From Rhynchopus sp. YZ270_cl-10 (Eukaryota > Euglenozoa > Diplonemea > Diplonemida > Diplonemidae): a stretch of DNA of 64,000 nucleotides. Position 1 is the first letter of the stretch. Each line of letters opens with the position of its first letter. The stretch spans positions 1 through 64,000 of the forward strand of contig CAXIVB010000011.1 of NCBI GenBank assembly GCA_964035575.1. Reading direction: 5' to 3'. Shown here piece after piece: positions 321 through 52,399 of the stretch. The translations under genes were made by a program, and so were the position numbers. The notes beneath the pieces were generated by a model, which was not told the DNA's origin, made no database searches, and saw only the letters and a list, made by a program, of their open reading frames with translations.

Positions 321-1690
321 AGATGTCCATGAGGTGACAAGACCTCTATAGAAGTATATATGGTAGGTATGGGGTGCATGCCCATATACCCCCATATGCC
401 CCCAATGGCCCTTTAGGACCATGTGGGCCATGTGCATCATATGTGGTGTACATGCATGGATATGGACTCGCATGGGTCCAGACCCATGGTTTACCCCATT
501 TCACCCAATTTGGGTGCATGTGCCAAAATGGCCTAAATGCCTGAAATGGGGCATATTTGGATGTTGAGACCTTTTGGGACCATGTCAAGACATGACATGA
601 CATCCAATATGTTATACATCATATGTACATGTATATATACATATATGTATATACATGTATATACCCCCGTATAGCCCCTTAGGGCATATAGGTGTATATA
701 GCATGTATGCACATGATATGGTCCATATGTGGACACATACATCATGTTGGGGTCTTGGGTCATGACCCGTCATGGCATCTTGACATGTCCAAATCCATGA
801 AATCAGGTCATATCAGGTGATTTGACCTCTTGACATGAGATGTGGTGATGTCACATGTTGCACATCATGTGCACATATAAGATGTAGAGATGTGTATGCA
901 CATGCATGTACATATATATACCCCCTATACAAGGGAGGGCTATATACATGTATATACATGTAGGTGCATGTACATGTATGTAAGTACATACTGTATATAC
1001 ACCTCTACCCATGCCATATGGGGTCTAAATGGGGTCCAAAAGGGTCCATTTATGGGTAGACCCCCATCTCATGACATGCCATGGGTCATGACCCATGAGG
1101 TGATATGACATGATATGGCATCTCATGAGATGGATAGGTCCTCATCCAATGAGGAGATATGCAACATCATATGATGTAATGCAACTTATATAAGTGCATG
1201 TGCACATATGGTTTACCCATATGGCCCATCATATGGGATGCATATATGTATATGTATATACATATATATACATGTGTCTACACATGTATGCACCATGTTG
1301 CACCTCTTAAAAGAGGTCTAGACCTCTAAATATGAGGTCAAATCCATGGATTTGGAGGTCCTCAGATCTCAGGACCTCCCATTTTGAGGACCCCCTCAGA
1401 TCTTGGGACCCCCTCAGATCCAGGGTAGGGACCCCAAATGGCACCTTTATACCCCCTTTTGGGACCTCCCCACATGGTGTAAGAGGTGCCCCACACCCCT
1501 ACATATAGGGTATATGCCCTAGGCTGTATAGGGGGTGTATAGGGGTATATAAAGGTGTATGTACACTTATATACATGTGCATGCACATATATATACATGT
1601 ATATATAGGTCCTCAGATCCCATGACCCTCCATTTGGGGGTCTGGAGACCTCAGGACCCCATTTTGGGACCTCTCCAGATCTGGGGGTAG
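321..1690. repeat. Module A of the A/B/C/D repeat family
   Basis: It starts with agatgtccatgaggtgacaa and runs through one copy of the 278-bp sub-repeat, a palindrome cluster (1249-1353) and a ggtcctcagatct-rich tail. The same sequence recurs as module B at +1,390, and in large part as modules C and D. The tail (about 1432-1690) is shared with module D rather than B. No gene is visible. Copies begin at 14922, 29524, 44126 and 58728. Confidence 0.9.
1249..1353. other. Palindrome cluster at the 3' end of module A
   Basis: Four self-complementary stretches lie within 105 bp: TATATGTATATACATATA (1249-1266, perfect 18-mer), acatgtgt-ct-acacatgt (1270-1287), agaggtctagacctct (1312-1327, perfect 16-mer) and aaatccatggattt (1340-1353, perfect 14-mer). 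The cluster recurs in module B (2639-2743), C (from 9784) and D (from 13322). Its role is unknown; it could be a replication, transcription-termination or recombination site, or simply drift of a palindrome-rich repeat. Confidence 0.7.
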
Positions 1691-1710
1691 GACCCCAAAT
1701 GGCTCACCTT

Positions 1711-2829
1711 AGATGTCCATGAGGTGACAAGACCTCTATAGAAGTATATATGGTAGGTATGGGGTGCATGCCCATATACCCCCATATGCCCCCAATGGCC
1801 CTTTAGGACCATGTGGGCCATGTGCATCATATGTGGTGTACATGCATGGATATGGACTCGCATGGGTCCAGACCCATGGTTTACCCCATTTCACCCAATT
1901 TGGGTGCATGTGCCAAAATGGCCTAAATGCCTGAAATGGGGCATATTTGGATGTTGAGACCTTTTGGGACCATGTCAAGACATGACATGACATCCAATAT
2001 GTTATACATCATATGTACATGTATATATACATATATGTATATACATGTATATACCCCCGTATAGCCCCTTAGGGCATATAGGTGTATATAGCATGTATGC
2101 ACATGATATGGTCCATATGTGGACACATACATCATGTTGGGGTCTTGGGTCATGACCCGTCATGGCATCTTGACATGTCCAAATCCATGAAATCAGGTCA
2201 TATCAAGTGATTTGACCTCTTGACATGAGATGTGGTGATGTCACATGTTGCACATCATGTGCACATATAAGATGTAGAGATGTGTATGCACATACATGTA
2301 CATATATATACCCCCTATACAAGGGAGGGCTATATACATGTATATACATGTAGGTGCATGTACATGTATGTAAGTACATACTGTATATACACCTCTACCC
2401 ATGCCATATGGGGTCTAAATGGGGTCCAAAAGGGTCCATTTATGGGTAGACCCCCATCTCATGACATGTCATGGGTCATGACCCATGAGGTGATATGACA
2501 TGATATGGCATCTCATGAGATGGATAGGTCCTCATCCAATGAGGAGATATGCAACATCATATGATGTAATGCAACTTATATAAGTGCATGTGCACATATG
2601 GTTTACCCATATGGCCCATCATATGGGATGCATATATGTATATGTATATACATATATATACATGTGTCTACACATGTATGCACCATGTTGCACCTCTTAA
2701 AAGAGGTCTAGACCTCTAAATATGAGGTCAAATCCATGGATTTGGAGGTCCTCAGATCTCAGGACCTCTCATTTTGGGACCCCCTCAGATCTTGGGACCC
2801 CCTCAGATCCAGGGTAGGGACCCCAAATG
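1711..2829. repeat. Module B of the A/B/C/D repeat family
   Basis: A near-identical duplicate of 321-1440, in the same orientation. In unit 1 it contains most of the unit-specific differences (five-C run at 2054-2058, A2206, A2294, T2469). It diverges from A after ggtagggaccccaaatg. Copies are at 16312-17431, 30914-32033, 45516-46635 and 60118-61237. Confidence 0.9.
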
Positions 2830-3380
2830 ACCCCTTTTAGACCCCTTTTGGACCCCCTATTAGGGCCTTTAGGGCCTTTATGGGGTGCCCACAGGGGTAC
2901 GTAGGGTGCCTACAGGGGCTCCCAATGGCCCTCCCCTTAAGGGGCCATTTGGGTACCCCATGAGCCCCCATGTGTCCCCATGGGTGCCATGTAGCCCCGT
3001 TAGGCCCATTTGACCCCTATGGCCTCAGACCCCTCAGGACCCCAAAAGGGGTCCAAAAGGGGTCATTTTAGGGGTACCCCCCAAAATGGGGTGTGCAGCT
3101 AATTGGGTCATATATAGGGCAAAATGGCCCTTTTCCGTTCTGGACACTTTTATACAGGGAGTAGTCCAAAAGTGACACAAAACGGGAAGTACGTGAAAAA
3201 GGGGTTTGGGGATTTCAGGCCCCAAAATGGCCGGGCGGCAGGAAGGTCCATTTTGAGGGTACCCCCAAATGACCCAATTTGGGGGGTCTGAGGACCCCAA
3301 ATGACCCCATTTTAGGACCCCTCAGGACCCCAAATGGCCCCATTTAGGGTCCTCAGAGGTCCTGGGGGTCTGGGGCCATG
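2830..3380. other. CCCC/GGGG-tract sequence
   Basis: Apart from E1 this stretch is built from words such as accccttttggacccc, tagggcctttagggcc and ccccatg, on both strands. Nothing gene-like is seen. In unit 1 it carries two private substitutions (T2836 and T2907; C and A in the other units). Confidence 0.7.
3122..3269. repeat. Element E1
   Basis: One of a diverged pair with E2 (5978-6130). Shared landmarks in order are aaatggccctttt, tatacaggga, tccaaaagtgacac followed by aaaacggg, then ggaaggtcc and gggtacccccaaa. In E1 ccgtt/aacgg and cactttt/aaaagtg can pair around tatacaggga. The flanks are plain CCCC-tract sequence. Copies are at 17724, 32326, 46928 and 61530. Confidence 0.7.
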
Positions 3381-3865
3381 GTGCCCAAGGGGTATACTAT
3401 GAGCCCCTTAGGATGTGGGAGGGCCACATCCATAGCACGAAGGGCACCATAGTGCACCCCACCCCACCTCCTACGGGTGCCCAAAGGGCATCCCAATGCC
3501 CCACCTCTATTGACCACTAGGAGGAAGGGACGCAAGCACCTGCTGGTCCGATCGTCCATAGGGATGCCCTCCCACGGGTAGACATAGGGGCAAGGAGGAG
3601 CCAGCACGGTGGTGACACACGTCCAAGCAAGGCAGACCGCTAGGGATAGCTGGCGCAGGTAAGGGTTGCATCCAGCCTCTAGTGCACTTTGAAGTAGGCC
3701 CCAGAACCGATAGGTGCACACGTGCGCCGCTAGGGGCGGGGACTTCATGCACATAGTGCAGCACCTCCCATAGGGAGTTGCTGTGCATGTGTAGTGAGCT
3801 GGCCCACGGAGTGTCGGAGCCTTGCAGGCGCAATGACGGGGGTCAGCGAGTACTTGACCTTAGGA
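3381..3865 (-). other. Non-repetitive stretch with a long open frame of unknown meaning
   Basis: This roughly 480-bp stretch is the longest outside the cob island that belongs to no repeat family. On the minus strand a frame is open from the stop near 3865 to the TGA at 3353-3355. With Met at 3754 it would give 133 residues, including YRFWGLLQSALEAG and a moderately hydrophobic run LSLAVCLAWTCVTTVLAPP. The context (one gene piece elsewhere in unusual sequence) makes a second gene module here plausible. I could not match it convincingly to any mitochondrial protein or rRNA, and its tail runs into tract repeats. GC-rich sequence has few stops, so chance is a fair explanation. Copies are at 17983-18467, 32585-33069, 47187-47671 and 61789-62273. 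Confidence 0.3.
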
Positions 3866-3875
3866 GCCCTTGACC

Positions 3876-4038
3876 ATCCGAAAGGTCCGAAGGAGGATCA
3901 GAGCGTAGCGGTTGGCCGCCAGGATGGGCAGGGCTTACCTCACCTCAAGAGACCTTGGCTCATCCGAAAGGTCCGAAGGAGGATCAGAGCGCAGCGGGTG
4001 GCCGCCAGGATGAACAGGGCTTACCTCACCTCAAGCAC
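3876..4038. repeat. 86-bp tandem duplication
   Basis: atccgaaaggtccgaaggag starts at 3876 and again at 3962. Both copies end in gggcttacctcacctcaag. Differences are few (gtagcggttgg versus gcagcgggtgg; gatgggcag versus gatgaacag). Related cttac-tgacctta words recur at 4083 and 4166. Confidence 0.85.
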
Positions 4039-4264
4039 GTTCCACCTCAAGAGGCTCTGTTAGTAGACCTCGGGCTAGAGGGCTTACTTGACCTTAAGTA
4101 GCGGGTTCGAAGAGCACGTAGCCCGTAGGGTCAGGACGGAGTTACGCCGTAGTACTGATGCCCCCGCTTACCTCGACCTGACCTCACTTCCGCCCATGGG
4201 TGGCGAGACCCTCCATTATGCTTGACTTTGACTTGCGGCACTGGTGGCACCACCAGGGACGAGA

Positions 4265-4372
4265 CGGCCTGAGCACAGCGAGGGAGGAGGACGTAGCCCG
4301 CAGGGCAAGGACGGGCCACGGCCTGAGCACAGCGAGGGAGGAGGACGTAGCCCGCAGGGCAAGGACGGGTAT
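4265..4372. repeat. 54-bp tandem duplication
   Basis: cggcctgagcacagcgaggg begins at 4265 and again at 4319, continuing through gacgtagcccgcagggcaag. The copies are identical to the eye apart from the last bases. Confidence 0.88.
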
Positions 4373-4680
4373 ACGGCCACCCCAAAGGGGAGGGAGGAGG
4401 ATGTCCCATAGGGACAGCCGGGTGGGCGCACAGCGCCGAACGGCCACTCCGAAGGAGCGGGAGGAGGATGTCCCGCAGGGACAGCCGGGCAGGGAGCGCA
4501 GCGACAGGGAGCGCAGCGACCACGGCCACCCCAAAGGGGCGGGAGGAGGAGGCAGTCCGTAGGACAAGGACGGGGGACCGAAGGTCCAAAGAGAGAGGGC
4601 GGCCGAGGAGAGATCGGACAGACCCACCTTGCGCAGCAGGGGGTCAGCCGACCAGGCAGGTGAGATACAGGTCCCCGGGC

Positions 4681-4754
4681 CTACAGCCCCTGTAGCCATC
4701 TCACCACGGCCGCCCGCTCGCTTGGGGCCCCATACCCTTGGGTGTAGGGCCCCA
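4681..4754. other. Two hairpins, GC-rich region
   Basis: ctacag-ccc-ctgtag (4681-4695) is followed by a stacked stem in which tggggccc (4723-4730) pairs with gggcccca (4747-4754) and, inside it, accc pairs with gggt. Both are perfect. They start a hairpin-rich stretch running to 5149. Confidence 0.65.
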
Positions 4755-4866
4755 TAGGCCTCCCGTCTAGGACGCACTTGCAGTGCATGGCCTAGCAGGA
4801 GGCCGTAGGTCTAGGTCCCTGTAGGGGCCATAGGCCTGAGCGTAGAGGAAGACTCCGATAGAGCTC

Positions 4867-4950
4867 CCATGGTCTGGTGGGCAAGACCATGGCCCGACCC
4901 TTTACCTCCAGGTAAAGGGGTAGGGCTAGAGGGCACCCTCTAAGGTGCCC
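4867..4950. other. Three consecutive perfect hairpins
   Basis: ccatggtct/agaccatgg (4867-4892, 9 bp), cctttacc/ggtaaagg (4899-4918, 8 bp, four-base loop) and gggcacc/ggtgccc (4931-4950, 7 bp) follow each other with gaps of 6 and 12 bases. The regularity suggests a folded RNA, though none of the three matches a family I know. Copies are at 19469-19552, 34071-34154, 48673-48756 and 63275-63358. Confidence 0.7.
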
Positions 4951-5117
4951 GACTCTTGGGCGAGCCAAGGAGCGGACATCCACCTCACCTAGCAGGTCTA
5001 AGGTGGGTGTGTAGCCCTTGGGTCATGCTGCATAAGGCGGCTGACGGAGCTCCCTTGCATCATCCTATTAGGATGGTAGCATGGGGCTGCATGACTCCTT
5101 GGCGAGCCCAAAGGCAA

Positions 5118-5149
5118 TTATAGGGTCTACCCTTTGGAAGACCCTATAA
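5118..5149. other. 11-bp perfect stem-loop
   Basis: ttatagggtct pairs exactly with agaccctataa around a ten-base loop (accctttgga). It lies at the downstream edge of the GC-rich region, just before sequence returns to catatgg-type repeats. Copies are at 19720-19751, 34322-34353, 48924-48955 and 63526-63557. Confidence 0.7.
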
Positions 5150-5293
5150 CGGTGCAACGTAGTGGAGCCTACGCATAAGCCTCAATACAGGGTATGTAGG
5201 CTGTATGGGGTACCCATACTAGATATGGGCCATATCATGTACCCATATCATATGACGTCAGTGGATGTCCAGTGGCATCATATCCGCACAAGG

Positions 5294-5576
5294 GGCTAAA
5301 AAGAGGGTCTCCATATGACACCCGGTGAAATCCATTTGATGCCACCTGGGGGTGATGGAGGTCCAAAAGTGAGACACCCTTTTGGACCCCTATTTGGAGC
5401 ATATGGCCCCATATGGCCTGTGTAGCCATGTGAGGTCCCATAGCGGGTCCTCCTAAAGTGCCCAAAAGGGCTAAAAAGAGGGTCTCCATATGACACCCGG
5501 TGAAATCCATTTGATGCCGCCTGGGGGTGATGGAGGTCCAAAAGTGAGACACCCTTTTGGACCCCCTTTTGGCCCA
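5294..5576. repeat. Direct repeat pair, about 107 bp each
   Basis: Copies start at 5294 and 5469, both beginning ggctaaaaagagggtctcc and running through acacccggtgaaatccattt to acacccttttggacccc. They differ mainly at one base (gccacctg versus gccgcctg) and are separated by about 67 bp of unrelated sequence. Copies are at 19896, 34498, 49100 and 63702. Confidence 0.85.
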
Positions 5577-5680
5577 TATGGCCCAGATGGCCATATAGGG
5601 GTCCTATCCCTTAGGACCCCATTTGGTCACGGGTGTTTTGGGGTACCTCCAAATAGGTGGTCCGTTTGAGACCCCCTATT

Positions 5681-5700
5681 TGACACTATATGGCCTGTAG
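5681..5700 (+). repeat. Recurrent 20-nt motif, tgacactat(t/a)tggcctgtag
   Basis: Found five times per unit in the same orientation: 11-30, 5681-5700, 10206-10225, 10404-10423 and 11510-11529. Each is followed by ga/acca-ggtcc and, in three cases, by a tggacccctccagacc word. It sits in otherwise diverged tract sequence, so the word itself appears constrained. The function is unknown; possible roles are a processing or transcription signal. Confidence 0.75.
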
Positions 5701-5977
5701 GACCAGGTCCCAATATGGACCCCTCCAGACCACTAGTGTCAGTTTTGAGGACCCCATTTGGCCCTTTTGAGGACCCCATTTTGACCCCTTTTGGGACCCC
5801 TCTGGAGGTCCTTGGGTAAGGGGACCTGCCTTACACAGAGACCTCGGGTCCCAGGGGTATAGTCTCAGGCCTGTAGACCCCCTCAGGTGCCTTACACGGG
5901 CTTGTAGACCCCCTGGCCCAAGACCCCCATTTTGACCCCTTTTGGGACCCCTCATCTCCCGGTCCCTATAGGGGCTC

Positions 5978-6130
5978 AAATGGCCCTTTTCGGGTTTGGA
6001 CCGTTTTATACAGGGACCAATCCAAAAGTGACACAAAACGGGTGGTACCCCAAAAAGGGGGTCCTCCGGATTTGGGTCCATTTTGGGGTCGGGCGTCAGG
6101 AAGGTCCCTTTTTGGGGTACCCCCAAAATG
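5978..6130. repeat. Element E2
   Basis: Diverged partner of E1 with the same ordered landmarks. Here the pairing uses ccgtttt/aaaacgg and tttgga/tccaaa instead, again leaving tatacaggga near the loop. The core word tccaaaagtga is also found in the 5294/5469 direct repeats. Confidence 0.7.
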
Positions 6131-6599
6131 GCCCTTTTGACCCCATTTTGACCCCTTTTGGACCCCATTTTGACCCCTTTTGGACCCCTTTTGGACCCCT
6201 TTTGGGGCCCTTTAGGGCCCTTTAGGGGGTCCCAAGGGGTGCCCACAGGGCTCCCAAGGCCCCTCCCCTCAAGGGGCCCTGGGGGTGTCCTGGGGGTCCA
6301 TGGGGTCCCATGGGGTCCCAAGGGGGTCCCATATGGGGTGCCCCAAGGGTAGGGGCCCAGGCCCCAAAGGGGGTCCCAAAAGGGGTCCCAAAAGGGGTCC
6401 TAAAATGGCCCTTTTGACCCCATTTTGGCACCGGCCGATGGGTCCGCCAGGGGGCAAAAGTAGGCAAAACGACTATTTTATGAGGTGCCATTATGCCTCC
6501 TAAATGGCCCTTTTTGGACCCCTTTTGACCCCCATTTTGACCCCTTTTGGACCCCATTTGGACCCCCTCAGCCCTCTCTCAGGAGGGCTAAGGAGGCCT

Positions 6600-7190
6600 A
6601 ATAAGGGGTTATATGTAGGTGTATGTACCTATATACATGCCCCCAGGCAAGGGTCCCCTTAGGGGCCCTGTGCACATGGCATCCCCATGTGCATATAGGT
6701 CCTCATACCCCTCCATACCCTCTATACCCCCTAAAAGGGGGTCTGGAGGGGTGCCCAAGGGGTCCAAATTGCCCCATTTTGGGGTCCTCAGGACCTCCAA
6801 AAAGGCATAAAAAGGCCCTTTTTGGGCCCCTCAGAGCCCTCAAATAGGGGGCTCAGGGGGTCCCAAAGGGTGTATATATTGGGTACCATGTATGCAATGA
6901 AACGTACCCCTCTTGAGAGGGGTCCCGGAGCATGCCTTACCTTAAAACTATTAGGTCGCGTGCACCAAATAGTTTTAGGTCATGGTAATGTCCCCATTTA
7001 TGGACATAAAGGGCCATAAAGTGGACATCATGCCCTGGGTCATGACCCATGGCATGTCATGAGATGGGGGTACCCCCATGGATTGACCCCATATGACCCC
7101 ATTTGGACCCCTTTAGACCCCTTGGCCAGCTCCCCACATGGTGTGAGAGGTGCTGTGCCATACTACATATGGGTGTATACACCCTATGGG
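6600..7190. other. Mixed sequence between tract region and 281-bp array
   Basis: It contains ggtgtatgtacctatatacat, ggtctgg and cccc tracts to about 6870. Next come about 150 bp of non-repetitive sequence with the 6939-6980 hairpin, then the gggtcatgaccc palindrome (7039-7050) and tract sequence leading into the array. No gene is recognised. The only difference between units here is C6794, which is G at 21396 in unit 2. Confidence 0.6.
6939..6980. other. Long hairpin in mixed sequence
   Basis: The stem is acc, bulged T, then taaaactatt pairing with aatagtttta and ggt (13 bp). After an A-A mismatch it continues with ggt/acc around the loop cgcgtgc. Just upstream is acccctcttgagaggggt (6905-6922), another short hairpin. 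The surrounding 6870-7020 sequence is not part of any repeat family I found. Copies are at 21541-21582, 36143-36184 and 50745-50786. Confidence 0.75.
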
Positions 7191-8290
7191 TACAGGGGGC
7201 TATATGGGTACATATGTATGTACATGTACATACATGTATATACATATATGTATATATATATATGTATATGTACACATATATGTTGTGGTCCAAAGACCTC
7301 GTCATCCATTTATGTCATGTCATGTCATCAAATTGGATCGACCTCATTTCATGATATGACCTCATTTCATGACATGTCATGGGTCTGGACCCATCCCCAC
7401 ATCTTATACGACCTCTTATCACATGATGTACATGTTGTATAGTGGTGGTATATAGGTGTATATAGGGCCATAGGGCTATGGGGCTATATAGGGGTATATG
7501 GGTACATATGTATGTATATATACATGCATACATACATATATATATGTATGTGTACACATATATGTTGATGTACAAAGTGCTCAACATCTGTTTATGTCAT
7601 GTCATGTCATCAAATTGGATGATCACCATTTTGGACATGATGCCATTTCATGACATGTCATGGGTCTGGACCCATCCCCACATCTTATACGACCTCTTAT
7701 CACATGATGTACATGTTGTATAGTGGTGGTATATAGGTGTATATAGGGCCATAGGGCTATGGGGCTATATAGGGGTATATGGGTACATATGTATGTATAT
7801 ATACATGCATACATACATATATATATGTATGTGTACACATATATGTTGATGTACAAAGTGCTCAACATCTGTTTATGTCATGTCATGTCATCAAATTGGA
7901 TGATCACCATTTTGGACATGATGCCATTTCATGACATGTCATGGGTCTGGACCCATCCCCACATCTTATACGACCTCTTATCACATGATGTACATGTTGT
8001 ATAGTGGTGGTATATAGGTGTATATAGGGCCATAGGGCTATGGGGCTATATAGGGGTATATGGGTACATATGTATGTATATATACATGCATACATACATA
8101 TATATATGTATGTGTACACATATATGTTGATGTACAAAGTGCTCAACATCTGTTTATGTCATGTCATGTCATCAAATTGGATGATCACCATTTTGGACAT
8201 GATGCCATTTCATATCACTTCATGCATCTAGACCCCTCTCAACACATGCTGCACATGTTGTATAGTGGTGGTATATAGGCGCATATATGC
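7190..8290. repeat. 281-bp tandem array, about 3.9 copies, unit 1
   Basis: Three near-identical 281-bp copies (equivalent points at 7478, 7759 and 8040) follow one diverged copy beginning near 7190. Each repeat has a tatagggccatagggctat segment, an alternating catatatgtatata purine-pyrimidine tract, repeated tgtca pentamers and the palindrome catgacatgtcatg. The last copy is interrupted after gtggtatatagg (about 8278), where the cob island begins. There are no plausible genes; open frames here (MYVYIHAYIH types) are translations of the TA/CA repeats. Confidence 0.9.
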
Positions 8291-8700
8291 ATATGGGCTA
8301 TAGGGCCCTGTAGGAGGCTACACCCCATTCCGTGGTATGGATGGTGTACCCCCAACTAGACCCTTTCTGGCACCACCACCTCTGAAGGACTATGCTGTTG
8401 AGGAGGCTACTACATATCAGGTACCACCCTTCAACGGGTGCTTACGCTCCATTACCTCTTGCCCTTTATACTGCTCCTCCTTATAGGTGTACACCTCCTG
8501 CTCCTACATACGTATGGCAGTGGCTGCATGGGCGCCCTTCCAGGTACAGAGGTAGATGGAGAGCCATTCAGTATGTACTACTACAAGGATGCACGTCACC
8601 ACCACTCCAGATGCCCATATCGGGAGGTCAGGTAAACGTCACCTTAAAGTAACACATTTTACCCCGACCGTGTAGGCAGGGTGTATGCCCATGACACTAG
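8291..8700 (+). other. Unique-sequence island holding the cob module
   Basis: Between the end of the 281-bp array and the spacer before module C, the base pattern changes from catatatg and ccccttttgg tracts to mixed, codon-like sequence. On the left, tacacc at 8319-8324 and ggtgta at 8343-8348 can pair around ccat/atgg, forming a small hairpin just upstream of the module. On the right, after the TAA at 8633-8635, are about 65 nt of non-repetitive sequence before tract sequence resumes. These flanks are the natural places for module-processing signals. Copies lie at 22893-23302, 37495-37904 and 52097-52506. Confidence 0.6.
8399..8593 (+). CDS. cob: Cytochrome b fragment (split mitochondrial gene module), unit 1
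   Basis: This encodes a piece of cytochrome b, the membrane-embedded, haem-carrying subunit of respiratory complex III. Read with TGA as Trp, it starts W-G-G (TGA at 8399-8401), then YYISGTTLQR, then LHYLLPFI and GVHLLLLH, then a loop with HTYGSG and ends PFSMYYYKDA. The two histidines (8450-8452 and 8492-8494) are 14 residues apart, the spacing of the second pair of haem-bL/bH ligands in the family. GS after the second His and the YY-KD motif are also in family order. The frame is open from 8360 to the TAA at 8633-8635 only if TGA is Trp. Similarity fades upstream of WGG (LCC) and after KDA, so the true module ends probably lie near 8366-8399 and 8590-8600. There is no start codon of the family, no helices A-C and no PEWY segment. 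It must be joined at RNA level or be a relic. It follows directly on a 281-bp repeat array. Confidence 0.87.
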
Positions 8701-8879
8701 GCTCTGGGTGTCCCCATCCCTATACCCCTAAATAAGGGGTAAAAAGGGGTGTCAGGACCTGGTCCAAAAGGGTCCAAAAGGTGTAAATGGGGTGATCCAA
8801 TGTGCTCAGCACATCACCTCATCTCCTTATCCATCCACTTCATCATCCATTAACAGGATGGACATGTCCATTTAACTGT
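8701..8879. other. Spacer between cob island and module C
   Basis: Short mixed stretch with ccctaaataagggg (a small hairpin), ggtccaaaagg words and tccatccacttcatcatcc. No gene is seen. Confidence 0.55.
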
Positions 8880-9920
8880 ATGTGCATGTATGCACATACA
8901 TGCATATATACATGTATATACCCCCTATAGCCCCTTAAGGGCATATGGGTGTATGTACCATGTATGCACATGATATGGTCCATATGTGGACTCATACATC
9001 ATGTTGGGGTCTTGGGTCATGACCCGTCATGGCATCTTGACATGTCCAAATCCATGAAATCAGGTCATATCAAGTGATTTGACCTCTTGACATGAGATGT
9101 GATGTCATGACATGATGTTATATGATGTGCACATGTGCACATATACATATACATATACATATACATGTTGTGTGCACATGTATATATACATGTATATACC
9201 CCCTATAGCCCCTTAAGGGCATATGGGTGTATGTACCATGTATGCACATGATATGGTCCATATGTGGACTCATACATCATGTTGGGGTCTTGGGTCATGA
9301 CCCGTCATGGCATCTTGACATGTCCAAATCCATGAAATCAGGTCATATCAGGTGATTTGACCTCTTGACATGAGATGTGGTGATGTCACATGTTGCACAT
9401 CATGTGCACATATAAGATGTAGAGATGTGTATGCACATACATGTACATATATATACCCCCTATACAAGGGAGGGCTATATACATGTATATACATGTAGGT
9501 GCATGTACATGTATGTAAGTACATACTGTATATACACCTCTACCCATGCCATATGGGGTCTAAATGGGGTCCAAAAGGGTCCATTTATGGGTAGACCCCC
9601 ATCTCATGACATGTCATGGGTCATGACCCATGAGGTGATATGACATGATATGGCATCTCATGAGATGGATAGGTCCTCATCCAATGAGGAGATATGCAAC
9701 ATCATATGATGTAATGCAACTTATATAAGTGCATGTGCACATATGGTTTACCCATATGGACCATCAGATGGGATGCATATATGTATATGTATATACATAT
9801 ATATACATGTGTCTACACATGTATGCACCATGTTGCACCTCTTAAAAGAGGTCTAGACCTCTAAATATGAGGTCAAATCCATGGATTTGGAGGTCCTCAG
9901 ATCTCAGGACCTCCCATTTT
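8880..9920. repeat. Module C of the A/B/C/D repeat family
   Basis: It lacks the agatgtccatgaggtgacaa head, has two copies of the 278-bp sub-repeat (ccccctatag at 8921 and 9199), then the common body and the palindrome cluster starting at 9784. It has its own alleles: catacatg near 9438, gacatgtcatg near 9610 and ggaccatcagatggg near 9760. Copies are at 23482-24522, 38084-39124 and 52686-53726. Confidence 0.88.
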
Positions 9921-11089
9921 GGGGACCCCCTCCAGATCTGGGGACCCCCTCCAGATCTGGGGACCCCCTCCAGATATGGGTAGGGACCCCATATGGGGTG
10001 GGACCCCATGTGGTATGGGTCCATATGGAGACCTCTCTTAAGGCCCATATGACACCAATGGACCCTTAAAGGGGTGACCACATGGTGTGCCAGCATGGCA
10101 CCCTTGGGCCCTCTGGTTGGACCCCCTCATATAGGGGTCCCCATATGGTACACCATATGGACATGGGGTGGGCTCCCATTTGGAGACCCCTTTTAGGACC
10201 CCATATGACACTATTTGGCCTGTAGGACCAGGTCCTAATATGGACCCCTCCAGACCATTAGTGGCACTTTGGGAGGTCCCCATTTGGACCCCCTCAGATC
10301 CAATGGAGGTCCCATTTAGACCCCCTCAGGTCTGGGGACCCCATATGACACCATATGGTCATGGGGTGGCCTCCCATTTGGAGACCCCTTTTAGGACCCT
10401 ATTTGACACTATATGGCCTGTAGGACCAGGTCCCAATAGGGACCCCTCCAGACCCCTAGTGGCAATTGGGACCCCTAGGGGGCTAGACCCCCAAATGACC
10501 CCTCTAAACGTGACCATATAGGTCCCAATTAGGGGGTTGGAGGTCCCTTTATGGGTCCATATGGAGACCTCTCTTAGGTCCCATATGCCCCCAATGGCCC
10601 CTTAAAGGGGTGACCACATGGTATGCCCCATGGCACCCCCTTTGGGACCCCTTTGGGACCCCATATGACCCCATTTAGACCCCCTCAGGACCCCCAAAAG
10701 GGCCTAAAACACCCTATTTGGACCCATTTGGACCCCTTTTGAGCACCCCTTTTAAACACCCCTTTTCCGACATGGTACCCCATTTGATCTACTCTACCTA
10801 TGAATTGGCCATTTAGGTGCTGTTCAGTCCTGGACCCCACATGCCGTTAGGTGGTCAAATAGGGGTCTAAACGTGACCGAGGGTCCTGGGACCCCTACAC
10901 GGTCACCCCTTTTAGACCCCTTTTTACCCCCTTTTTACCCCATATTGGGACCCCCTACCTGTAGTGGATCCCTTTAAGGGTCTAAAGTAGGCATATGGGG
11001 TACACCCCCTGACCTCCATATATGCCCTTCTGCTTACACGCTCACCCCTTTTGACCCCTTTTGGACCCCTTTTAGGACCTCCCATGGGG
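9920..11089. other. Tract sequence with recurrent motifs
   Basis: Made of ccccctccagatctgggga triplicates (about 9920-9980), two copies of the 20-nt motif with its aggaccaggtcc extension, ccatatgg words and cccctttt tracts. At 10780-10801 it shares ccatttgatctactct-cctat with 13863-13885. No gene is recognised. Confidence 0.6.
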
Positions 11090-11583
11090 TCAAAGGACCT
11101 CCCAAAAGGTCCTAAAAAGGGGGTCCCCTGCATCAGACCTGGCAATGCTGTTTTGAATGGTTGAGCCCCTTGGGGGTCCCCAAATGGCCAATTTAGGACC
11201 CTTTTAGGACCCATTTTGGGGTCCAAAAGGGGTCAAAATGGGGTCCTCAGATGGCCCAAGACTATGGTCTCTAGAGGCAATATTGGGTCTTTGGGGTCAC
11301 CCCATCCCTGGATCCAAGGGGTCTCCAGATGGGGTACCCCTTTTAGGACCCCTTTTGGGGTGCTCCCAGGCCATTAAATATGTCGAAAAGCGACGTCCAC
11401 TTGCGTAGGCTTAGTCCTCTTTTGGGCATGTCGGGTTTAGACAACCCCTGCCAGTCCTAAGTGCTCTAAAAAGGGGTGAAATATGGTGGTCCATTTGAGG
11501 ACCCCGATATGACACTATTTGGCCTGTAGGACCAGGTCCAGATCTGGACCCCAGATGGTCCAAAAGTGCTCCTACTCACATAT

Positions 11584-11597
11584 CGCGCGCGCGCGCG
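11584..11597. repeat. (CG)7 run in block P1
   Basis: The same seven CG dinucleotides with the same immediate flanks (acatat before, tggtaagag after) as the run in P2, although the wider sequence has diverged. Copies are at 26186, 40788 and 55390. Confidence 0.9.
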
Positions 11598-11626
11598 TGG
11601 TAAGAGTACGGGGTCAAAATCGGTGC

Positions 11627-11667
11627 CCTTCCGGGCCCAGGCCTCTGGAGGCCTGGTGCCCGGAAGG
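11627..11667. other. GC-rich 41-nt hairpin in block P1
   Basis: ccttccgggc pairs with gcccggaagg (10 bp) and the next ccaggcctc with gaggcctgg (9 bp), with a single bulged T at 11657. P2 has no equivalent at this place. It could be a terminator-like or processing stem. Copies are at 26229, 40831 and 55433. Confidence 0.75.
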
Positions 11668-11754
11668 CCCGCCCCGCTGGGGACCTCAGGAGGTCCCAGA
11701 CCCTGTGGGGGTCTGGGCCTCACCCCTCCCGAGGGGGTCTGAGGACCTCCAAAC

Positions 11755-11955
11755 CCCTTGTACGCCCCCATGTCCTGGGGGGTGCGGTCCAAGGGTTGGG
11801 TCAAAGCACGGAGCACTTGGAGGTCTACAAAGCATGTGGTGCCATACCAGCTCCCCATGTATTGGGTCCTACATGGTGTGGGGTGGTGGCACGAGGTGGC
11901 ATGTAGAGGCCATGGCCTCTCCACACCCCTCTCCATACATGGGGGCGTACAAGGG
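11755..11955. other. 201-bp element bounded by 19-bp perfect inverted repeats
   Basis: The left arm (11755-11773) begins cccttgtacgcccccatg; the right arm (11937-11955) is its exact reverse complement, ending catgggggcgtacaaggg. The enclosed 163 bp is mostly non-repetitive and holds smaller palindromes (agaggccatggcctct; ccatgta...tacatgg). It could be a small mobile or recombinational cassette, a long stem-loop, or the borders of an unrecognised gene module. No coding similarity was seen in any frame. Copies are at 26357-26557, 40959-41159 and 55561-55761. Confidence 0.7.
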
Positions 11956-12097
11956 ATATGACCCCATATGGAGAGGTCTTGGGACCTGAGTGCTCTGGGG
12001 TGAGGACCTCCATTTAGAGGTCCAACCCCTTAAATGACCCATATTGGGTGTTTGACCCCCATGAGCTCTTTGGAGCTCTTTGAGCACCTAGACCATT

Positions 12098-13760
12098 AGA
12101 TGTCCATGAGGTGACAAGACCTCTATAGAAGTATATATGTATATGCATGTTGTGTGCACATGTATATATACATGTATATACCCCCTATAGCCCCTTAAGG
12201 GCATATGGGTGTATATACCATGTATGCACATGATATGGTCCATATGTGGACACATACATCATGTTGGGGTCTTGGGTCATGACCCGTCATGGCATCTTGA
12301 CATGTCCAAATCCATGAAATCAGGTCATATCAAGTGATTTGACCTCTTGACATGAGATGTGATGTCATGACATGATGTTATATGATGTGCACATGTGCAC
12401 ATATACATATACATATACATATACATGTTGTATGCACATGTATATATACATGTATATACCCCCGTATAGCCCTTAAGGGCATATAGGTGTATATAGCATG
12501 TATGCACATGATATGGTCCATATGTGGACACATACATCATGTTGGGGTCTTGGGTCATGACCCGTCATGGCATCTTGACATGTCCAAATCCATGAAATCA
12601 GGTCATATCAAGTGATTTGACCTCTTGACATGAGATGTGATGTCATGACATGATGTTATATGATGTGCACATGTGCACATATACATATACATATACATAT
12701 ACATGTTGTATGCACATGTATATATACATGTATATACCCCCGTATAGCCCTTAAGGGCATATAGGTGTATATAGCATGTATGCACATGATATGGTCCATA
12801 TGTGGACACATACATCATGTTGGGGTCTTGGGTCATGACCCGTCATGGCATCTTGACATGTCCAAATCCATGAAATCAGGTCATATCAGGTGATTTGACC
12901 TCTTGACATGAGATGTGGTGATGTCACATGTTGCACATCATGTGCACATATAAGATGTAGAGATGTGTATGCACATGCATGTACATATATATACCCCCTA
13001 TACAAGGGAGGGCTATATACATGTATATACATGTAGGTGCATGTACATGTATGTAAGTACATACTGTATATACACCTCTACCCATGCCATATGGGGTCTA
13101 AATGGGGTCCAAAAGGGTCCATTTATGGGTAGACCCCCATCTCATGACATGCCATGGGTCATGACCCATGAGGTGATATGACATGATATGGCATCTCATG
13201 AGATGGATAGGTCCTCATCCAATGAGGAGATATGCAACATCATATGATGTAATGCAACTTATATAAGTGCATGTGCACATATGGTTTACCCATATGGCCC
13301 ATCATATGGGATGCATATATGTATATGTATATACATATATATACATGTGTCTACACATGTATGCACCATGTTGCACCTCTTAAAAGAGGTCTAGACCTCT
13401 AAATATGAGGTCAAATCCATGGATTTGGAGGTCCTCAGATCTCAGGACCTCCCATTTTGAGGACCCCCTCAGATCTTGGGACCCCCTCAGATCCAGGGTA
13501 GGGACCCCAAATGGCACCTTTATACCCCCTTTTGGGACCTCCCCACATGGTGTAAGAGGTGCCCCACACCCCTACATATAGGGTATATGCCCTAGGCTGT
13601 ATAGGGGGTGTATAGGGGTATATAAAGGTGTATGTACACTTATATATATGTGCATGCACATATATATACATGTATATAGAGGTCCTCAGATCCCATGACC
13701 CTCCATTTGGGGGTCTGGAGACCTCAGGACCCCATTTTGGGACCCTCCTCAGATCTGGGG
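12098..13760. repeat. Module D of the A/B/C/D repeat family
   Basis: It has the same head as A and B, then three copies of the 278-bp sub-repeat (about 12140-12900), the common body, the palindrome cluster at 13322-13426 and the A-type tail. (acatat)n microsatellite stretches separate the sub-repeats. Copies are at 26700-28362, 41302-42964 and 55904-57566. Confidence 0.88.
12140..12900. repeat. 278-bp sub-repeat, three tandem copies inside module D
   Basis: The unit runs from catgttgt(g/a)tgcacatg through atggtccatatgtggac, gggtcatgaccc and gacctcttgacatgagatgt to the (acatat)n stretch, and repeats every 278 bp. Modules A and B have one copy, C has two and D has three. Confidence 0.88.
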
Positions 13761-14180
13761 ACCCCCTCCAGATCTGGGGATAGGACCCCAAATGGACCCA
13801 TTTGGACCCCATTTGAGGACCATTGGCATCATGTGTGGACACCCCCTTTTCCACCATGTATGCCATTTGATCTACTCTCCCTATACATATGCCCTAAATG
13901 GACATAACCCCATATGATCCCATATGTGTTATATGACCACTTTGGAGCACCTTTATATGCATAGGGTGGGGACCCCATATGGGCCCTTTTAGACCCCTTC
14001 CAAAAGGGGGTCTAAAGCATGTACACCTCCTTACACTCCATGTGTATGGTGGTGTATAGGTTAAGGGGCTATATAGGGCATAATGGGTACATGTACATAC
14101 ACATGTGTTGCACGTCATGTGCATCATGTTGGCATGTCATGAGGTGGTCCAAAAGGGTGATCATCAGATGACCCCATTTT
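13760..14180. other. Spacer between module D and block P2
   Basis: gatctggggacccc words, the ccatttgatctactct motif, a catatgg stretch and gggtacatgtacatacacatgt. No gene is recognised. Confidence 0.55.
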
Positions 14181-14921
14181 GGGACCCCTCCCATTTTAAG
14201 AGGTCCGCTGCATCAGACCGGGCCATCCTGGTTTGAACCGTTTGGGGACCTCAGGACCCCCAAATGGGCTGAATTGACCCCTTTTAGGGTCCTCAAAAGG
14301 ACCCATTTTGGGGTCAAAAGGGGGTCAAAATGGGGTCCATATGGTGACCCATACTATGGTCTATATAGGCAATATATGGGTCCTGGACCCTCCTCATGCC
14401 TGGACCCGAGGTGCTCCAAAGGGGGGTACCCAAAGTGGTCCATTAAATAGGAGGCCTCCAGACCCCTTAGGGGTCCAAAAGATGTCGAAACCCGACATCT
14501 ACCTGGACCCCCGGGGGTCCCAAAAGGGCCATGTCGGGTTTATACAACCCCTGCCAGTCCTAAGTGCCATAAAAAGGGTGATATTTGGTGGTCCATTCTG
14601 AGACCCCAATATGACACTATTTGGCCTGTAGACCATGGTCCAGATCTGGACCCCAGATGGTCCAAAAGGGGGTGCAACTAACATATCGCGCGCGCGCGCG
14701 TGGTAAGAGGTAGTTTATAAAATCGGCGCTTCCCAGGACCCCAGACCCCAGGAGGTGGTCTCAGGGGGTCTGAGGGGTTGGGAGGGGTCTGGAGCCATGA
14801 GGGGTCTGGACCACCCACCCTGTGGAGATGGCTGGTGGTCTGTAGGGAGGTGGCCAAAAGGGGTGTTTATACCCCTATGGCGCCTCAAGCCCTTTAAGTG
14901 CTGTTGAGCACCCAATGCATT
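14180..14921. repeat. Paralogous block P2 (crosses the unit boundary)
   Basis: This block is a diverged relative of P1 (11090-12097). Conserved islands in order are: ctgcatcagacc; actatggtct then ggcaatat-tgggtc; a gtcg-cgac hairpin (14480-14500); gtcgggttta-acaacccc then gccagtcctaagtgc; tgacactatttggcctgtag; ggtccagatctggacc; and the (CG)7 run (14687-14700). Between islands the two blocks differ widely. The tail is GC-rich ggggtctgg sequence ending where module A starts. The window opens inside this block (1-320). Confidence 0.75.
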
Positions 14922-17900
14922 AGATGTCCATGAGGTGACAAGACCTCTATAGAAGTATATATGGTAGGTATGGGGTGCATGCCCATATACCCCCATATGC
15001 CCCCAATGGCCCTTTAGGACCATGTGGGCCATGTGCATCATATGTGGTGTACATGCATGGATATGGACTCGCATGGGTCCAGACCCATGGTTTACCCCAT
15101 TTCACCCAATTTGGGTGCATGTGCCAAAATGGCCTAAATGCCTGAAATGGGGCATATTTGGATGTTGAGACCTTTTGGGACCATGTCAAGACATGACATG
15201 ACATCCAATATGTTATACATCATATGTACATGTATATATACATATATGTATATACATGTATATACCCCCGTATAGCCCCTTAGGGCATATAGGTGTATAT
15301 AGCATGTATGCACATGATATGGTCCATATGTGGACACATACATCATGTTGGGGTCTTGGGTCATGACCCGTCATGGCATCTTGACATGTCCAAATCCATG
15401 AAATCAGGTCATATCAGGTGATTTGACCTCTTGACATGAGATGTGGTGATGTCACATGTTGCACATCATGTGCACATATAAGATGTAGAGATGTGTATGC
15501 ACATGCATGTACATATATATACCCCCTATACAAGGGAGGGCTATATACATGTATATACATGTAGGTGCATGTACATGTATGTAAGTACATACTGTATATA
15601 CACCTCTACCCATGCCATATGGGGTCTAAATGGGGTCCAAAAGGGTCCATTTATGGGTAGACCCCCATCTCATGACATGCCATGGGTCATGACCCATGAG
15701 GTGATATGACATGATATGGCATCTCATGAGATGGATAGGTCCTCATCCAATGAGGAGATATGCAACATCATATGATGTAATGCAACTTATATAAGTGCAT
15801 GTGCACATATGGTTTACCCATATGGCCCATCATATGGGATGCATATATGTATATGTATATACATATATATACATGTGTCTACACATGTATGCACCATGTT
15901 GCACCTCTTAAAAGAGGTCTAGACCTCTAAATATGAGGTCAAATCCATGGATTTGGAGGTCCTCAGATCTCAGGACCTCCCATTTTGAGGACCCCCTCAG
16001 ATCTTGGGACCCCCTCAGATCCAGGGTAGGGACCCCAAATGGCACCTTTATACCCCCTTTTGGGACCTCCCCACATGGTGTAAGAGGTGCCCCACACCCC
16101 TACATATAGGGTATATGCCCTAGGCTGTATAGGGGGTGTATAGGGGTATATAAAGGTGTATGTACACTTATATACATGTGCATGCACATATATATACATG
16201 TATATATAGGTCCTCAGATCCCATGACCCTCCATTTGGGGGTCTGGAGACCTCAGGACCCCATTTTGGGACCTCTCCAGATCTGGGGGTAGGACCCCAAA
16301 TGGCTCACCTTAGATGTCCATGAGGTGACAAGACCTCTATAGAAGTATATATGGTAGGTATGGGGTGCATGCCCATATACCCCCATATGCCCCCAATGGC
16401 CCTTTAGGACCATGTGGGCCATGTGCATCATATGTGGTGTACATGCATGGATATGGACTCGCATGGGTCCAGACCCATGGTTTACCCCATTTCACCCAAT
16501 TTGGGTGCATGTGCCAAAATGGCCTAAATGCCTGAAATGGGGCATATTTGGATGTTGAGACCTTTTGGGACCATGTCAAGACATGACATGACATCCAATA
16601 TGTTATACATCATATGTACATGTATATATACATATATGTATATACATGTATATACCCCCCGTATAGCCCCTTAGGGCATATAGGTGTATATAGCATGTAT
16701 GCACATGATATGGTCCATATGTGGACACATACATCATGTTGGGGTCTTGGGTCATGACCCGTCATGGCATCTTGACATGTCCAAATCCATGAAATCAGGT
16801 CATATCAGGTGATTTGACCTCTTGACATGAGATGTGGTGATGTCACATGTTGCACATCATGTGCACATATAAGATGTAGAGATGTGTATGCACATGCATG
16901 TACATATATATACCCCCTATACAAGGGAGGGCTATATACATGTATATACATGTAGGTGCATGTACATGTATGTAAGTACATACTGTATATACACCTCTAC
17001 CCATGCCATATGGGGTCTAAATGGGGTCCAAAAGGGTCCATTTATGGGTAGACCCCCATCTCATGACATGCCATGGGTCATGACCCATGAGGTGATATGA
17101 CATGATATGGCATCTCATGAGATGGATAGGTCCTCATCCAATGAGGAGATATGCAACATCATATGATGTAATGCAACTTATATAAGTGCATGTGCACATA
17201 TGGTTTACCCATATGGCCCATCATATGGGATGCATATATGTATATGTATATACATATATATACATGTGTCTACACATGTATGCACCATGTTGCACCTCTT
17301 AAAAGAGGTCTAGACCTCTAAATATGAGGTCAAATCCATGGATTTGGAGGTCCTCAGATCTCAGGACCTCTCATTTTGGGACCCCCTCAGATCTTGGGAC
17401 CCCCTCAGATCCAGGGTAGGGACCCCAAATGACCCCTCTTAGACCCCTTTTGGACCCCCTATTAGGGCCTTTAGGGCCTTTATGGGGTGCCCACAGGGGT
17501 ACGTAGGGAGCCTACAGGGGCTCCCAATGGCCCTCCCCTTAAGGGGCCATTTGGGTACCCCATGAGCCCCCATGTGTCCCCATGGGTGCCATGTAGCCCC
17601 GTTAGGCCCATTTGACCCCTATGGCCTCAGACCCCTCAGGACCCCAAAAGGGGTCCAAAAGGGGTCATTTTAGGGGTACCCCCCAAAATGGGGTGTGCAG
17701 CTAATTGGGTCATATATAGGGCAAAATGGCCCTTTTCCGTTCTGGACACTTTTATACAGGGAGTAGTCCAAAAGTGACACAAAACGGGAAGTACGTGAAA
17801 AAGGGGTTTGGGGATTTCAGGCCCCAAAATGGCCGGGCGGCAGGAAGGTCCATTTTGAGGGTACCCCCAAATGACCCAATTTGGGGGGTCTGAGGACCCC

Positions 17901-22892: not shown

Positions 22893-23000
22893 ATATGGGC
22901 TATAGGGCCCTGTAGGAGGCTACACCCCATTCCGTGGTATGGATGGTGTACCCCCAACTAGACCCTTTCTGGCACCACCACCTCTGAAGGACTATGCTGT

Positions 23001-23195
23001 TGAGGAGGCTACTACATATCAGGTACCACCCTTCAACGGGTGCTTACGCTCCATTACCTCTTGCCCTTTATACTGCTCCTCCTTATAGGTGTACACCTCC
23101 TGCTCCTACATACGTATGGCAGTGGCTGCATGGGCGCCCTTCCAGGTACAGAGGTAGATGGAGAGCCATTCAGTATGTACTACTACAAGGATGCA
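23001..23195 (+). CDS. cob: Cytochrome b fragment, unit 2 copy
   Basis: Copy of the cob module at +14,602. The TGA at the conserved Trp position (23001-23003), both histidine codons (23052-23054 and 23094-23096) and the downstream loop are unchanged. I saw no difference from unit 1. Boundaries carry the same uncertainty as in unit 1. Confidence 0.87.
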
Positions 23196-37494: not shown

Positions 37495-37602
37495 ATATGG
37501 GCTATAGGGCCCTGTAGGAGGCTACACCCCATTCCGTGGTATGGATGGTGTACCCCCAACTAGACCCTTTCTGGCACCACCACCTCTGAAGGACTATGCT
37601 GT

Positions 37603-37797
37603 TGAGGAGGCTACTACATATCAGGTACCACCCTTCAACGGGTGCTTACGCTCCATTACCTCTTGCCCTTTATACTGCTCCTCCTTATAGGTGTACACCT
37701 CCTGCTCCTACATACGTATGGCAGTGGCTGCATGGGCGCCCTTCCAGGTACAGAGGTAGATGGAGAGCCATTCAGTATGTACTACTACAAGGATGCA
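37603..37797 (+). CDS. cob: Cytochrome b fragment, unit 3 copy
   Basis: Copy of the cob module at +29,204 from unit 1, with the same in-frame TGA at the WGG position and the same open frame ending at a TAA. No change was seen. Confidence 0.87.
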
Positions 37798-52096: not shown

Positions 52097-52204
52097 ATAT
52101 GGGCTATAGGGCCCTGTAGGAGGCTACACCCCATTCCGTGGTATGGATGGTGTACCCCCAACTAGACCCTTTCTGGCACCACCACCTCTGAAGGACTATG
52201 CTGT

Positions 52205-52399
52205 TGAGGAGGCTACTACATATCAGGTACCACCCTTCAACGGGTGCTTACGCTCCATTACCTCTTGCCCTTTATACTGCTCCTCCTTATAGGTGTACAC
52301 CTCCTGCTCCTACATACGTATGGCAGTGGCTGCATGGGCGCCCTTCCAGGTACAGAGGTAGATGGAGAGCCATTCAGTATGTACTACTACAAGGATGCA
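52205..52399 (+). CDS. cob: Cytochrome b fragment, unit 4 copy
   Basis: Copy of the cob module at +43,806 from unit 1, and the last in the window because unit 5 is cut before this point. No change was seen. Confidence 0.87.

Follow-up and report, generated by a model that had tools for sequence, protein, structure and literature searches.

What kind of DNA carries a fragment of cytochrome b, with TGA at a conserved tryptophan, amid long tandem repeats? The question is raised by a stretch of 64,000 nucleotides, called the window below, with which contig C113 (177,658 bp) begins in an assembly of 152,426,579 bases and 126 contigs. We consider it highly probable that the window is mitochondrial DNA of the diplonemid type carrying one module of the cytochrome b gene, cob, and that the cob messenger RNA (mRNA) is joined from separately transcribed modules.

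The cob module and its cassette

The cob module occupies positions 8393..8590 of the + strand and comprises 66 codons (C C W G G ... Y Y Y K D), the only part of cytochrome b on the window's unit, whereas the full protein has ~385 residues. Translated with TGA as Trp, positions 8399-8635 give WGGYYISGTTLQRVLTLHYLLPFILLLLIGVHLLLLHTYGSGCMGALPGTEVDGEPFSMYYYKD..., of which residues 1-40 match positions 150-189 of the Pfam profile PF00033 with 31.9 bits (cut-off 27.2); PF13631 is matched with 32.1 bits (cut-off 27). Comparison of the code 4 translation with cytochrome b profiles, proposed in the initial annotation of this DNA, thus exceeds the cut-off in both families, and still does so when the first Trp is omitted (PF00033 28.3 bits, PF13631 30.2 bits). 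A search of PDB sequences with E up to 1 returned 40 distinct sequences, all 40 of them named cytochrome b, 37 with E <0.001 and the best with E 4.5e-10. The window's piece was also recovered, at E 1e-4 and 28.7 bits (above the cut-off), by a six-frame profile search of the 152-Mb assembly. At the level of sequence, the cytochrome b piece claimed in that annotation is confirmed as real by both profile and PDB matches.

Compared with known cytochrome b (PF00033; PDB 7rja, 3cx5), the piece corresponds approximately to residues 164-229 of the yeast protein and shares with it the WGG motif and both second haem-ligand histidines. In the alignment with yeast 3cx5, query residue 1 (Trp) falls on position 166 and the query histidines 18 and 32 fall on 183 and 197, which in yeast cytochrome b are the second ligands of haems bL and bH. 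The order of motifs and the two histidines 14 residues apart had been read from the letters in this very sense, and the alignment agrees. The TGA codon stands opposite Trp in all four PDB alignments printed. Past approximately 8590 the frame (ARHHHSRCPYREVR) is flank and no longer cytochrome b; the 3´ end of the module lies between 8590, the final cytochrome b residue, and 8600, where constant sequence begins.

The sequences on both sides of the module recur elsewhere. The module-specific insert (8369..8600, +), delimited by alignment of cassettes and by the lack of blastn matches on C113 other than the cob copies, consists of the module with ~24 bp of unique sequence on its 5´ side and up to 10 bp on its 3´ side. 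It is preceded by the end of an upstream constant region (8323..8368, +; CCCCATTCC..CCCCCAACTA..CCCTTTCT), recurring with variation in other cassettes, and followed by the start of a downstream constant region (8601..8760, +; ACCACTCCAGATGCCCATATCG.GAGGTCAGGTAAACGTCACC...), found in at least 28 places on 10 contigs with 98-100% identity over the matched part; all 28 places listed are on contigs C104 and higher. The cassette alignment comprises 23 of these 28 places, with ~13 distinct inserts, the other five being further cob copies. The upstream mark (..CCCCCAACTA..CCCTTTCT) is variable, and the downstream mark, TATCGTGAGGTCAGG, is often preceded by ACCACTCCAGATGCCCA. Both marks enclose 200-279 bp in 12 of the ~13 distinct inserts; on C118 the upstream pattern was not matched. 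Flanked by constant regions common to many molecules, the piece is a gene module set in a cassette.

Other inserts contain pieces of other respiratory genes. Eight cassettes were put through Pfam, five with a match and three without. Two matches exceed the cut-off, cox1 (50.7 bits) and nad1 (35.0 bits, minus strand); an N-terminal part of cob (22.0 bits), cox3 (21.2 bits) and a piece of PF00361 (20.3 bits), nad5-like by eye, stay below it. No Pfam match was obtained for the inserts on C106 (cox2-like by eye), on C125 and at C113:123963, and the set searched left out the inserts on C117, at C113:95802, at C104:25014 and on C110. Assigned inserts are the window's cob and five others, of ~13. Besides the piece on C118, cox1 has a weaker, below-cut-off piece on C114 (23.9 bits); there, at C114:1-800 and its repeats, cox1 and nad7 matches (18.8-21.6 bits) lie near each other, on both strands and below cut-off. 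All matches to PF00346 (nad7) score below cut-off. The repeated unit of C114 measures 13,073 bp, with a final spacing of 12,587; in the parts of it compared, nothing resembles the window's unit. A genome-wide search with PF00510 gave nothing significant. Because it missed even the cox3 piece, which on its own reaches 21.2 bits, a negative from a genome-wide search carries little weight for short modules.

Further pieces of cob and the genetic code

Across the assembly, PF00033 matches three pieces in different parts of the profile: 5-63 on C122, 99-146 on C121 and 150-189 on C113 (two other places have E >1). The C121 piece, with 46.9 bits, is above the cut-off, and the C122 piece, with 19.6 bits, is below it. 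The C121 piece terminates with ...VPVVGHDVLT. In alignments that reach its final residue (Thr 49), this Thr and the window's Trp fall, for example, on 169 and 172 in the plant chain 8bel, on 167 and 170 in 8zno and on 152 and 155 in 8iuf, leaving a gap of two residues between the pieces. Directly 5´ of the TGA stand TGC TGT, two codons in register. Since they fill exactly the two-residue gap, the TGA likely belongs to the cob module. The caveat entered in the initial annotation, that the module could begin just after the TGA, is weakened by this in-register joint; appended U residues could, for instance, supply part of it. The flanks of the C121 piece are related to the window's unit (84% upstream, 93% downstream); the downstream flank aligns ~6 kb farther along that unit, in agreement with the shorter spacing on C121 (11,340 bp).

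In the 10 gene pieces listed, five of 14 Trp codons are TGA. Apart from WGG in the window, TGA is found well within two further modules, at LP(W)G in cob and at Y(W)HFVD in cox3, the former on a cob piece other than the window's. The Trp residues of LPWG in cob and YWHFVD in cox3 are generally regarded as invariant. A TGA = Trp code, first suggested from the window's frame, is borne out by these three motifs and by the codon count. UGA is read as Trp in Diplonema mitochondria as well, according to a passage in PMC12699882. Respiratory gene pieces share one kind of cassette, and it is this, more than the cob piece alone, that argues for mitochondrial origin. The window thus very probably belongs to the mitochondrial compartment, as had been proposed.

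The repeat unit, its known relatives and the host

The window is a head-to-tail array of a single unit, tandem-repeat rows recurring each 14,602 bp; with an arbitrary start and no strand assigned, one unit spans 1501..16102. Exact further copies of positions 8399-8635 start at 23001, 37603 and 52205, and C113 as a whole has six copies of this stretch. The corresponding module copies, exact from the TGA on, are at 22995..23192 (copy 2), 37597..37794 (copy 3) and 52199..52396 (copy 4), all on the + strand. Successive unit copies, compared from the module on, differ by 0-1 base (4 comparisons), and the first ~2.06 kb of the window are offset by one base, a one-base length difference read from the copy offsets.

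Past the window, C113 has two additional cob copies, followed by units of 14,192, 15,549 and 13,912 bp. When the cob unit was compared by blastn with C113 beyond 84.5 kb, only 8369-8600 (232 bp) and 4575-4782 (208 bp) were unmatched. The remaining ~97% of the unit is common to other C113 units, most 300-bp bins having ~96-99% identity, where each value is the best match anywhere on C113 beyond 84.5 kb, internal repeats included. In a Pfam search covering part of the unit's frames, the cob module was the sole coding piece recognised. The other unmatched segment, 4575-4782, is GC-rich and lies within a short tandem repeat area that also varies among units; considered as a second cassette, it was rejected on account of this location and because no protein was recognisable by eye in its six frames. 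Rfam at gathering thresholds gave no match in the window, hence no mitochondrial ribosomal RNA was recognised there. Nor were transfer RNA genes found in the window, in line with their absence from euglenozoan mitochondrial DNA as reported in PMC8130358.

Chromosomes of diplonemids (D. papillatum, D. ambulator, D. sp. 2 and Rhynchopus euleeides), as PMC5658414 describes them, likewise carry cassettes between common constant regions. Our comparison rests on such published descriptions. The likeness extends to single-module units here together with the multi-module stretch on C114, to UGA as Trp, and to the genes found in pieces (cob, cox1 and nad1; more weakly cox3, nad5 and nad7). Genes are divided over different molecules, cob over C113 and C121 (weaker C122) and cox1 over C118 (weaker C114). 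Unlike in diplonemids, several unit types follow each other within one assembled contig here. Like copies are spaced by 14,602, 14,192, 15,549 and 13,912 bp on C113, 11,340 on C121, 17,641 on C106, 15,501, 15,191 and 13,668 on C104, 14,374 on C122 and 14,317 on C115; four contigs with the downstream flank measure 14.3-15.7 kb overall, about one unit.

The nuclear contigs help to place the host. They contain genes of the flagellar-rod family PF05149, which we take to mark Euglenozoa, with 30 listed matches, of which some are exons belonging to a single gene, and a best score of 301.9 bits; none of 14 control genomes has a match. One such gene has an apparent intron, an interruption with GT..AG ends, and introns are described as almost absent in kinetoplastids and abundant in euglenids and diplonemids (PMC8061765). 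A kinetoplastid maxicircle, with its unsplit genes, was rejected on this apparent intron and on the spread of both cob and cox1 over separate contigs. Euglenid mitochondrial DNA, in the account of PMC8130358, consists of linear chromosomes with single genes each. On C45, a spliced-leader relic, AAACAACGATTTCTTCTATTCAGTTTCTGTACTTTATTG, precedes mRNA-like sequence and is close to the leader AACCAACGATTTAAAAGCTACAGTTTCTGTACTTTATTG listed as 'Euglenozoa 14' (PMC3795323). Together, the flagellar-rod genes, the apparent intron, the leader relic and these literature contrasts point to a diplonemid host, short of proof.

Some further observations concern other contigs. In large contigs, two exact spliced-leader 3´ ends stand directly 5´ of mRNA-like sequence, as though copied back into the genome from spliced mRNAs by reverse transcription. 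The exact 18S motif leads to contig C111 with a ribosomal DNA unit of ~6.6 kb containing 18S, 5.8S and large-subunit ribosomal RNA; by motif spacing there are six copies along the 38 kb of this contig, and they could serve to place the organism. Elsewhere, the 17-nt universal 18S motif is found singly on each of 11 large contigs (a reversed-pattern control gave 1 in all), and one of these places, when examined, had no Rfam match at the gathering threshold.

Proposed module joining, rival explanations and significance

On the DNA itself we find the module, its cassette borders, further cob pieces, the same flanks around respiratory gene pieces and TGA at Trp. Under the diplonemid-type explanation, the 14,602-bp unit is most likely a circle, and cob would probably become complete only as RNA. 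By analogy with the system described in PMC5658414, every cassette would give rise to its own transcript. The module RNAs would be trimmed and ligated in order, namely the C122 piece, one further piece, the C121 piece, the window's piece and further 3´ pieces. Some joints may be edited by U-appendage or substitution, and the joined cob mRNA would be translated with UGA as Trp.

Several points weigh against this explanation. Our analysis covers the DNA side only, joining and editing being carried over from the known diplonemid system, and circularity derives solely from the head-to-tail copies. The spacings of 11.3-17.6 kb exceed the ~4-10 kbp of diplonemid mitochondrial circles given in PMC5658414, a figure which is the range of the species studied and no definition of such circles. 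The C122 cob piece is weak against PDB as well (best E 0.0037). No piece with the first haem histidines (PF00033 profile 64-98) was found in the six-frame assembly search, and for the C-terminal half of cob a genome-wide PF00032 search gave one match, on C75, with E 0.5 and below the cut-off. That 'Euglenozoa 14' is the Diplonema leader is our assumption. A spliced-leader RNA gene was not found with the patterns used; D. papillatum is reported to have 110 copies (PMC10161547).

How C113 came to hold its array may be answered in more than one way. It could reflect real molecules, circles having recombined via their long common regions into mixed head-to-tail concatemers; this we regard as improbable. 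Concatenated circular molecules are described in diplonemid and kinetoplastid mitochondrial DNA (PMC6334171). If true, mixed concatemers (six cob copies, then other unit types) could help inflate organelle DNA. In the sixth cob copy, cob-type sequence extends ~1.6 kb downstream of the cassette and is followed by the next unit type; over 14 kb the sixth copy is 99.9% identical to this type. Either the assembly crossed from one unit type to the other where their sequences are almost the same, or the switch is a true recombination product. Several mitochondrial unit types succeed one another at C113:81409-177658, and one non-cob module is found on both the 14,192-bp and the 13,912-bp unit, with a small difference (one base seen).

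It is possible that the window is a nuclear copy, or that the array was concatenated in assembly. In the nuclear version, the contig would be an insertion of mitochondrial circles and the cob piece a non-functional copy. We judge this very unlikely: the contig starts and ends within mitochondrial units (in the stretch compared, the final ~0.7 kb being outside it), the copies are nearly identical, and their frame is open. Moreover, among the matches listed the cob insert is confined to C113 (six of 19, the other 13 being flank only), and all 28 places with the downstream flank are on C104 or higher-numbered contigs.

Equally hard to credit is a euglenozoan host outside the diplonemids whose mitochondrial genes are fragmented too, for instance one related to the single cell SAG D1, which is sister to kinetoplastids. 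In favour of it, the mitochondrial contigs of SAG D1 likewise contain fragmented and scrambled pieces of the same genes (PMC6792441), and leaders ending in CAGTTTCTGTACTTTATTG are found in many of the Euglenozoa listed in PMC3795323. The 5´ part of those leaders is presumably of the kinetoplastid type. On the other side, the C45 relic leader and 'Euglenozoa 14' both contain AACGATTT. For SAG D1, PMC6792441 describes contigs of mostly unique sequence that lack the cassette structure, whereas here a long common region, ~97% of the unit, surrounds a short insert. The apparent intron in a flagellar-rod gene also speaks against a host near kinetoplastids, where introns are almost absent (PMC8061765).

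The odds that the piece is a chance open frame, with repeat DNA happening to encode hydrophobic residues that resemble cytochrome b, are negligible: an open frame alone carries little weight because one unit has 174 code-4 frames of at least 64 residues, but a chance match is rejected on E values of 4.5e-10 against PDB and 1e-4 in the six-frame search of the 152-Mb assembly, the module borders agree with the cassette borders, and the neighbouring C121 piece is register-exact.

A fragmented, cassette-built mitochondrial genome of the diplonemid type is of a known kind, with unusually large units here. Beyond the initial annotation, the window is seen as a tandem 14,602-bp unit, with cob divided over several contigs and an architecture like that of diplonemids. 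Contigs that look like 'anonymous repeat' in this assembly would be mitochondrial DNA with fragmented genes, which standard-code annotation would miss. With a coding part of ~200 bp in 14.6 kb, the cob unit would be a case of units above reported sizes. A contiguous nuclear assembly together with mitochondrial contigs would offer a further system in which to investigate the fragmentation of genes, the joining of modules and the inflation of mitochondrial DNA.
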